Source: Planctomycetaceae bacterium (GTDB lineage: Bacteria > Planctomycetota > Planctomycetia > Planctomycetales > Planctomycetaceae). From it: a DNA stretch of 43,734 bases. Position 1 is the stretch's first letter. Each line of letters begins with the position of its first letter. The notes beneath the pieces were generated by a model. That model was not told the origin of the DNA, did not search any database, and was given only the letters and a program-made list of their open reading frames with translations. Made by a program: the position numbers and the translations under genes. Below, in pieces: positions 31,884 through 35,353 of the stretch. The stretch lies in the NCBI GenBank assembly GCA_028284885.1, contig JANQQW010000029.1, positions 1 to 43,734 of the forward strand, in the 5' to 3' direction.

Positions 31884-33782
31884 TCAGGACTCGGAGAACG
31901 CCGCGTAGTCGGCCGGAGTGGCGCCGTCGAGGCAGGCCTCGATGATCTTCCGTCCGCGCGGGTCGAGGTCGTCGTCGACGAACTTCCGAATCTGGTCGTG
32001 GAAGAAGCCGGTCAGAATCTCGGCCCCCTTGTCGTAGCTCTCCTCGCCGACCTCCGGCTGCGTCTCGACCCGGAGGAACCAGTGCCCGATCGTCTGCCCC
32101 TCGACCTGGATCGTCTGGGGCGTCTGGCCGAGGATCGGGCAGCGGGCGTCGATCAGCTTCCCGGGCGGGAACGGGGCCGACCCGCGACGCGAGACGTACT
32201 CCCGCACGATCCACTGCGGCGCGAACCCCGTCGCCCAGGCTCCCACGTGCTGGTTCGGCACGAGCACGAACATCGTGTCCGGCGTCTCCATGATCTGGTG
32301 CAGCAGGATGTTCGCCTGGTCGACGCGACGCCCCGTGGCGAACGGCCAGTACGACCCAACGCCCTCGGAACTCATGCCCTCGGCCTCCACGATCGACGGG
32401 TTGCCGTGCCCACGCGGAGCGACCAGCCGCCACAGCCACGCCAGCGCGGGGGAGAGCACGTGGAACATGCCGATCACACCGTAGGTCGGCCGTTCCCGCG
32501 TGCACGGCGGGCAGCGGACGCCGAAGCTCCGGACGTCGACCGTGACCGACCCGTCCACGATGCCGGGGTAGTTGGCTCGCGGGAAGATCAGGCGCGGGTT
32601 CGGGCACGGCACGCCCGGTTCGTCCTCGATGTGCTCCCAGATGAGGGCCGTCGAGTCGGGCTTGGCGTCGATGTTCAGGAACAGCAGAGGCTGTTCCGGG
32701 TGGATGGTCAGTCCCTCGAGGTGCGGGTCGGTCCCGTAGTGGTCGATGTGGTTCACACGCAGGAACCACGCCTTCTCGGCATCGACGAGACTCAGCTTCT
32801 TCTGCCGCGACTCCTTGTCCTGCAGGTCCGGGTGGCAGAGGGCCATGTCGTCCGTGACGGGGTGCAACTCGCAGCCGTGCGGGACGGTGAGATACCTCGG
32901 TTCGCCGGTGACGACGTTCTCGCCGAGCCGCAGTCGGCCGTCCCGTTCGCGGTGCATCTGCTCGAGCATCTCGCTCTTGCCGCCGCCGGACGCCCCCTCG
33001 TGCATGATCGTGATCTCGTTGTCGTACGGGGTCACGACCTTCACGGTCGAGCAGTGAGCCGTCGTCCAGTCCTGCTTCTCGCCGAAGTTCAACAGCATCC
33101 CGTAGACCCCCTTCTTCGCCGAGGGGCCCGGGTACAGGTTGTAACTGTAGAGCTCGTGGAGTTCGTCGCGGCGGTTGTGGACCACCACCTGCTTGCCGTC
33201 GAAGTGGGTGTGCCGGAACGGCGGTGCGACGTAGATGATCGCCGAGTGGAAGTAGCCCTCGCCGCGCTTCTCCATCTCCTCCAGCGGGACGATGCCCTGC
33301 AGTGTCGCCAGGCCGAAGGCGAAGAAGGCCGCGTTCGCCGGGCAGATCGCGACGGCCGGCAGCCCCTTGTCCGGCATGCCCGCGTCGAAGAAGAAGCACG
33401 CCAGGTCCTGCGTCTTCAGCCAGTCGAACGTCTGCTGCCGCAGCGACTCGAAGTCCTCGCCGAACCGTTCCACGTAGGTCTTCTTGTCGGTCGCCCGTTC
33501 GTCCGCGATGACCATGCAGTTCGGGTCGCGGCGGCGCATGTACGGCTCGACGTAGTTCGCGCTGATGCCGTTCTTCACCCGGCACACCCGAGCCTCCGGG
33601 CGGAACTCGCCGTCCACGTCGTAGCCGACGGTGAAGAAGCCCTTGTCGTCCGTTTGGTCCGGTGGGACGGCGGCCTCGGCGATCTCGGCGGCCGAGCCGA
33701 AGAACGTGACCGACTTCGCCTCGGACAGCACGACCTCGGCGGAACGAGAGAGCGACAGCTGGGGAAATCGTTCGGTGAACAC
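31884..33782 (-). CDS. DUF4914-like P-loop protein related to PEP carboxykinase
   Basis: 632 residues from GTG 33782. A P-loop HEGASGGGKSEM (G263-S270) is the only clear functional motif. Around it, AFFAFGLATLQGIVPLEEM, HSAIIYVAPPFRHTHFDGKQ, IIGHWFLRVETQPEV and the overall plan correspond to what I recall of DUF4914, a family in the PEP-carboxykinase clan that is found mainly in Bacteroidota and planctomycetes and whose reaction is unknown. It therefore probably binds ATP or GTP and phosphorylates or decarboxylates a carboxylate, but that is inference. No visible ribosome site lies before the GTG, so the start is uncertain. A plausible promoter lies at 33863-33891. Confidence 0.72.
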   Translation of the reverse strand: MFTERFPQLSLSRSAEVVLSEAKSVTFFGSAAEIAEAAVPPDQTDDKGFFTVGYDVDGEFRPEARVCRVKNGISANYVEPYMRRRDPNCMVIADERATDKKTYVERFGEDFESLRQQTFDWLKTQDLACFFFDAGMPDKGLPAVAICPANAAFFAFGLATLQGIVPLEEMEKRGEGYFHSAIIYVAPPFRHTHFDGKQVVVHNRRDELHELYSYNLYPGPSAKKGVYGMLLNFGEKQDWTTAHCSTVKVVTPYDNEITIMHEGASGGGKSEMLEQMHRERDGRLRLGENVVTGEPRYLTVPHGCELHPVTDDMALCHPDLQDKESRQKKLSLVDAEKAWFLRVNHIDHYGTDPHLEGLTIHPEQPLLFLNIDAKPDSTALIWEHIEDEPGVPCPNPRLIFPRANYPGIVDGSVTVDVRSFGVRCPPCTRERPTYGVIGMFHVLSPALAWLWRLVAPRGHGNPSIVEAEGMSSEGVGSYWPFATGRRVDQANILLHQIMETPDTMFVLVPNQHVGAWATGFAPQWIVREYVSRRGSAPFPPGKLIDARCPILGQTPQTIQVEGQTIGHWFLRVETQPEVGEESYDKGAEILTGFFHDQIRKFVDDDLDPRGRKIIEACLDGATPADYAAFSES

Positions 33783-33936: not shown

Positions 33937-34560
33937 TCACCAGTCGTCGTCCGGATCTCCGTCGTCGAAACCCCGCTCCTCGTCGGCCTCCCCGCCCTCG
34001 GCCGCGTACATCACGTCGGTTCGCAGGACGTACTTCCGGCCCTCCAGCACCGGCTCCCCCTTGTGGTGCACGGCATGCTCGAAGAACAGGGCCGTCCCTC
34101 GTTCCGGCGTCACGCTGAACTCGTCGAACGAGTCCTCCGTGTAGCTGTCCTCGAACGACGTCTCGCCCCCCTCGAAGCCGTCGTTCAGGTAGACCATGAA
34201 CGTGAGGAAGCTCGCCTCGCCGTTGTCCCGCTCGCTCGCGGCCTTTCGGCCGCTTCTGGCCGCTGGCCACACCTGTCTGCGGTTCGGGCTTTACCCGGAA
34301 CAGCAGTCGAAATCAAGAAGTCCTAGTGCCAGTTGAAGGTCTGGCCGACGTCGTACCGGTAGAAGCGGACCAACTCGTTGAGCCTCACGGCCGCCCGGCT
34401 TTCGACCTCCGTCGGCACGAACTCCTCGATCCGCTCCCACAACCGTGCGACGAACTCCTCGCTGGAGAACATCACCCGCTGATTGTTCCGCACGTCCTCC
34501 CGCCGGACGACCCCGTCCGGCGTACTGCCCAACGCATCCTCGGCTTCCTCGCGGGTTGAC
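33937..34560 (-). pseudogene. Interrupted 2OG-Fe(II) oxygenase (prolyl-4-hydroxylase-like)
   Basis: Two frames together read as one 2OG-Fe(II) dioxygenase. The upstream part (34323-34560) reads DVRNNQRVMFSSEEFVARLWERIEEFVPTEV...VRLNELVRFYRYDVGQTFNWH and stops with TAG (34323-34325). The downstream part (33937-34272) reads ERDNGEASFLTFMVYLNDGFEGGETSFEDSY... FSVTPERGTALFFEHAVHHKGEPVLEGRKYVLRTDVMYAAEG. Iron binding needs H-x-D...H: the first His is the residue before TAG, the next codon GAC would be the Asp, and the distal His is in EHAVHH. The R/K pair GRKYVLR would bind 2-oxoglutarate. Ninety-two bases separate CAC (34326-34328) from the ERDNG codons, where about 20 are expected, and the frame shifts. 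The usual N-terminal 40-60 residues are also missing beyond 34560, where the low-GC islet begins. It is probably non-functional unless recoding occurs. Confidence 0.75.
34234..34325 (-). repeat. Insert with two hairpins inside the oxygenase gene
   Basis: The stretch between the two halves of the oxygenase carries two stem-loops on the minus strand: GTTCCGGGTAAAGCCCGAAC (34301-34282; a seven-pair stem with one bulged C) and GCGGCC-GAAA-GGCCGC (34253-34238; six perfect G-C pairs closed by a GNRA tetraloop). About 70 bases exceed the expected spacing. No known element was recognised. Confidence 0.55.
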
Positions 34561-34585
34561 GATCGCCGTACGGTAATACTATATG
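34556..34585 (+). promoter_or_regulatory. Possible promoter of the 88-residue gene
   Basis: TTGACG (34556-34561) is followed after 18 bases by TATATG (34580-34585), or after 15 bases by TACTAT (34577-34582). Start would be near 34592, about 48 bases before ATG 34640. Confidence 0.35.
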
Positions 34586-34639
34586 TACACTTCACGGCCG
34601 GGATCCATTCGCAAGTACAGAAGCGTCTTGGAGGCAACG

Positions 34640-34906
34640 ATGCAGTTGGACGGGGCGATAATCGATGAGCAGGGAGTGACGTTCGCGATCGTTGTCGTGA
34701 AGACCGGTGTGCTTCAAACGAGGTCACGGAGCGATCAAGTGCGCGAATCCCTTGCGTTGATCCAAGACTTTTCTGAGTTGCCAATCGTCTTGGCGGCACA
34801 GGACGCAAAAGGGAGATTTACCTATCAAGGACGTCACGACATCGTCGATTTCCTGGCGTCAATCGACGCGTCGCGGATCCCGTGGAAGACGTACTCAGTG
34901 GGATGA
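34640..34906 (+). CDS. Small unrecognised protein of a low-GC islet
   Basis: 88 residues from ATG 34640, preceded by GGAGG (34630-34634) at good spacing; the frame is open from 34583 but the ribosome site decides for 34640. The protein alternates hydrophobic and polar segments (AIIDEQGVTFAIVVVKTGVL, LPIVLAAQDAKGRFTYQGRHDIVDFLASID) and looks like a compact alpha/beta domain without membrane helix, signal peptide or Cys. I do not recognise the family. GC of the gene is visibly lower than its surroundings (32/60 and 31/60 in two lines). It is oriented against the flanking genes, with its own promoter candidate, and converges with the minus-strand gene ending at 34917 (10-base gap). Confidence 0.75.
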   Translation: MQLDGAIIDEQGVTFAIVVVKTGVLQTRSRSDQVRESLALIQDFSELPIVLAAQDAKGRFTYQGRHDIVDFLASIDASRIPWKTYSVG

Positions 34907-34916
34907 CGTTCGAGGC

Positions 34917-35330
34917 TCAACTAACCGGGAAGTGTCGACGGGTGACGTCGTCGAACGCCGTCCAGTGGTCGGCGACCTGACCATGCCCAGAGTGCTTCCG
35001 TGTCACTTGCACTCCAACGCAACGGCCGTCAGGCGTTTCGCCGAACAGGTATCGGTATGCATTACACTCCGGCTCGTTCTGGCTCGGACTTGGCTCCTCT
35101 CGCACCCATTCTATTGCCAGCTGGCGACCCCCAGACTTGAACACACCATGTTGCGGAGAAAGCGCGACTCCGCTGGCTGCGGCATAGACTGTGTCGGGAC
35201 TCCCATCGATGAAGGGCGCGACCAATGAGGCGTCACCCACGCTTAGTTCAACGATTTGTGCAGTCCCGACTTCGTCAATGAGCAGTTCACAACAATCAGC
35301 ATCGACGACGAATGGACGTTGCTTTCGCAT
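34917..35330 (-). CDS. Unrecognised protein of a low-GC islet
   Basis: 137 residues from ATG 35330, preceded by AGAGG at a six-base spacing, which supports translation. The sequence (MRKQRPFVVDADCCELLIDEVGTAQIVELSVGDASLVAPFID... YRYLFGETPDGRCVGVQVTRKHSGHGQVADHWTAFDDVTRRHFPVS) has no signal peptide and no membrane helix. It contains four Cys and a mix of short beta-like strands. I do not recognise the family. Base composition is lower in GC than miaB (34/60 in one line). It starts 23 bases after the miaB stop on the same strand and could be cotranscribed with miaB. No toxin, antitoxin or DNA-binding motif is evident, so its job cannot be stated. Confidence 0.7.
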   Translation of the reverse strand: MRKQRPFVVDADCCELLIDEVGTAQIVELSVGDASLVAPFIDGSPDTVYAAASGVALSPQHGVFKSGGRQLAIEWVREEPSPSQNEPECNAYRYLFGETPDGRCVGVQVTRKHSGHGQVADHWTAFDDVTRRHFPVS

Positions 35331-35353
35331 CTTTGCCTCTGCCCTGAAGAGCC

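Follow-up and report, generated by a model that had tools for sequence, protein, structure and literature searches.

The 2OG-Fe(II) oxygenase gene that lies in two halves on the minus strand (34547-33937) of the window, the whole 43,734-nt stretch of Planctomycetaceae DNA analysed here, is very probably an ordinary pseudogene of a dispensable PF13640 enzyme, as judged by comparison with its relatives. Set against intact orthologues, the gene carries three disabling lesions: loss of the 5′ end, a nonsense codon and a +77-nt frameshift (Table 1). A sequence-only reading of the same DNA had proposed that a recent insertion killed the gene, or else that recoding or removal of the insert from the RNA restores its product. 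Our analysis supports the first proposal and adds the nonsense codon and the 5′ loss to it; the two routes to a restored product fail on several counts.

On the minus strand, the break reads TTC AAC TGG CAC TAG GAC TTC (CAC, 34328-34326), and the enzyme frame picks up again at GAG CGG GAC AAC GGC from 34233, in a different frame, confirming that a TAG at the x of H-x-D splits the oxygenase and that its remainder continues in another frame. The second half does retain both the distal His and the 2OG-binding segment, which reads GRKYVLRTDVMY there. The first half aligns with the intact orthologue of genome G022 at 58% identity over residues 34-111 (E = 1.7e-25) and the second at 71% over residues 112-205 (E = 2.1e-37); at such E values the likeness is not due to chance, and because each half independently matches one intact orthologue, the split gene is real, an assembly fault aside. 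The second half also matches the PF13640 profile above the cut-off (E = 6.4e-08), and this match, together with that of both halves to the intact orthologue, places the gene in PF13640 by descent. A working enzyme holds the HxD...H iron ligands in one chain; here the TAG stands between H and D, and a frameshift precedes the distal His. Directly downstream of the oxygenase, at window positions 31884-33782, lies a gene for a DUF4914 protein (PF16260, E = 1.1e-302).

Table 1 Features of the split oxygenase locus, in window coordinates.
Feature	Position	Strand	Description
Compositionally different block	34560..35340		Adjoins the 5′ break; two small ORFs; GC dip
Approximate 5′ breakpoint	34548..34560	-	Orthologue residues 1-33 and start codon missing upstream
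Oxygenase first half	34326..34547	-	EAEDALGSTPDGV...RFYRYDVGQTFNWH, without N-terminus; 58% identity to orthologue residues 34-111
TAG stop at the x of H-x-D	34323..34325	-	Gln in close relatives, Arg in one
Native GAC TTC	34317..34322	-	Asp (iron ligand) and Phe; same codons in orthologue G022
Unrelated GC-rich segment	34234..34316	-	83 nt replacing 6 nt (Pro-Tyr); net +77 nt, frame shifted; three potential hairpins
Oxygenase second half	33937..34233	-	ERDNGEASFLTFMVYLN...GRKYVLRTDVMY...DDDW, to original C-terminus, stop TGA

Alignment with orthologues resolves the break into two separate changes. Intact relatives carry the motif uninterrupted and without the inserted segment: the G022 codons are CAC CAA GAC TTC CCT TAT GAA CGG GAC AAC GGG (H-Q-D-F-P-Y-E-R-D-N-G), and the window equivalent is H-stop-D-F-(83 nt)-E-R-D-N-G. 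Other close relatives read HQDFSYEREN, HQDFPFERDN or HQDAPFERDN, and one reads HRDIPFEREN; around the position of the stop, most have HQDF, two HQDA and one HRDI. Because this position is Gln in close relatives, the TAG is probably a separate point mutation outside the insert, read most simply as a single CAG-to-TAG change. The apparently precise strike on the catalytic motif is a positional coincidence: the TAG stands in place of a Gln codon, and the foreign segment lies beyond the motif. The interruption had earlier been put at 92 nt, a figure that counted in the TAG and the native GACTTC; the unrelated stretch itself is 83 nt.

The hairpins noticed earlier in this segment are real as folding potential: folded alone, the insert forms three hairpins at -37.1 kcal/mol (z = -2.84), and 0 of 200 shuffles were equally stable; with its flanks z is -1.06. 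It is present in a single copy, with no second one in its own genome; no relative carries it, and it has no match in phages and plasmids. A search of the whole window against Rfam at the gathering score gave no match to a described RNA family such as an intron or riboswitch. Across 397 genomes of the class, no convincing match to the insert was found, only short or weak ones with per-genome E values of 6e-4 or worse. Most of these span 17-40 nt and a few extend to 58 nt with 75-76% identity; they are GC-rich hairpin sequence, and with hundreds of genomes searched they do not rise above chance. No terminal repeats or target-site duplication were seen around it. A multi-copy mobile element of the MITE or REP type was considered for the insert and rejected, given the single copy and the lack of flanking repeats.

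Homology to the orthologue starts only at about 34547, and the first ~33 codons are gone together with the start; intact relatives have about 33-40 residues, start included, ahead of the point at which the window begins to match. When the minus strand of 34320-34960 was translated in three frames, none of them yielded a counterpart of the orthologue N-terminus. On this alignment, loss of the 5′ end is a third lesion, which the sequence-only reading overlooked. In the adjoining block, the small ORFs at 34640-34906 (+) and 34917-35330 (-) have no Pfam match, and their GC3 values, 0.67 and 0.58, fall below the 0.94 of neighbouring genes (the DUF4914, MiaB and EF-P genes in the window). This low-GC3 block (34560-35340) was probably acquired, and the 5′ end was likely removed by its arrival or by a deletion at its edge.

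The oxygenase is patchily distributed: 30 of 170 family genomes give matches with E no higher than 1e-10, and the close subfamily occurs in far fewer, only a few. In a tree, the window gene falls into an HQDF-type clade with G022 and G065 (support 1.0); the same genome also holds an intact, different paralogue on contig C33, outside that clade. Gene neighbourhood is not shared, the neighbours of the oxygenase in relatives being unrelated to those in the window. With one relative left out of the count, the first half differs at 6 of 32 clade-invariant positions, compared with 0-4 for intact members, and the second half at 1 of 42. GC3 of the two halves is still host-like (0.92 and 0.93, against 0.94 for host genes), so the decay would be recent.

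At least four other members of the family are broken. In one (L097:4876-5184, G052:C100), homology starts precisely at the HxD His, and what precedes it in the same open frame is unrelated. In another (L119:185-511, G159:C22), the C-terminal half is fused about 17 residues before HxD, and the gene ahead of it looks macro-domain-like by eye. A third, in a single-contig genome (L039:1430-1520, G035:C1), has a frameshift after the motif, between YLNNDFTGGGTNF and VKPVRGTAL. The fourth (L065:2803-3150), from a MAG labelled Planctomycetota (LacPavin), has an internal deletion that joins RNNDRM to FKRH, and also an insertion translating as EGEAPAEPFTHQARQEPRL, which we take to resemble a planctomycete interspersed repeat. 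The breaks in G052, G159 and L065 also lie near HxD, which might hint at a shared hotspot of breakage, but local-alignment searches favour the conserved C-terminal half, a bias that deprives the pattern of weight.

Could the cell nonetheless make the enzyme? If the insert were cut from the RNA as a tiny intron-like element, its stable fold in isolation (z = -2.84, three consecutive hairpins) would fit, but once the 83 nt are cut out, the TAG still stands in frame and the start and first ~33 codons are still missing. Removing 34234-34325 (92 nt) instead loses the iron-ligand Asp codon along with the stop, the start again being absent. The insert is moreover single-copy, absent from relatives and unmatched in Rfam, and at 83 nt it is shorter than any class of self-splicing intron that we know of; the chance that excision yields a working enzyme is very small. 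Equally remote is recoding, whether by TAG readthrough with a -1 frameshift or by bypass from the His codon as in T4 gene 60. The TAG does immediately follow the last sense codon, hairpins lie within the gap and a frame is open from the TAG on through the insert. Against this, no CAC or CAT occurs between the take-off codon and the resumption point, so that bypass would have no matching landing codon, and no slippery heptamer is present for a frameshift. Readthrough would place about 27 extra residues beside the iron site and then still need a -1 shift, and a search of the genome for pyrrolysine synthetase (PylS) scored 20 bits where the cut-off is 178; the N-terminus would be missing regardless. 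A related idea makes the hairpin-rich segment a small element of a kind not yet described, able either to insert itself into genes or to be bypassed or cut out at the RNA level. It is highly improbable: a fold better than that of shuffles speaks for it and nothing else does, and the gene would still be without a start. An insert removable at the RNA level would be remarkable, and the missing start makes such a reading very unlikely.

Somewhat less improbable, though still unlikely, is an assembly or sequencing artefact, in which the strain's gene is intact and unrelated pieces have been joined in the contig at this point. In its favour, the assembly is a draft in 399 contigs, and neither the rest of it nor any relative offers a source for the 83 nt. 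An artefact would, however, have to account for three lesions that are separate and differ in kind, among them a clean C-to-T change; errors in base calling do not produce 77-nt insertions, and the gene sequence is continuous on both sides of the insert. Counting against a pseudogene are the good conservation of the second half and the fold of the insert, features that would also fit a special role. Under the pseudogene reading that we prefer, the 5′ end would have disappeared at what is now the junction with the compositionally different block, the Gln codon of H-Q-D would have turned into TAG, and the 83-nt stretch would have taken the place of the Pro-Tyr codons right after the motif, shifting the frame. 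Because no target-site duplication or terminal repeat was seen, the insertion probably occurred by illegitimate recombination, and the good preservation of the remains would reflect a recent loss. The lesions themselves are read directly from the DNA; their order, the insertion mechanism and an absence of expression are what we infer from them.

With the prolyl-4-hydroxylase-like PF13640 superfamily, the two halves share sequence, the HxD Asp, the distal His and the C-terminal RKYVLR segment; unlike those enzymes, the window has no single frame that holds His, Asp and distal His, and the N-terminus is absent. T4 gene 60 uses the same codon (GGA) for take-off and landing across 50 nt, and its bypass loses processivity past about 56 nt (PMC11194080). 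The window resembles it in the stop directly after the last sense codon and the hairpins in the gap, but the gap is longer, no landing codon matches and the insert is not conserved. The closest parallel is with the pseudogenes that prokaryotes form from dispensable or horizontally acquired genes; a large share of prokaryotic pseudogenes is reported to stem, as it seems, from failed horizontal transfer (PMC522871). The significance of the locus lies mainly in annotation, where a pseudogene label should replace that of two short genes. With such pseudogenes it shares several independent disabling lesions in a patchily distributed accessory gene, and no difference of substance separates them, the stop inside HxD being a coincidence.
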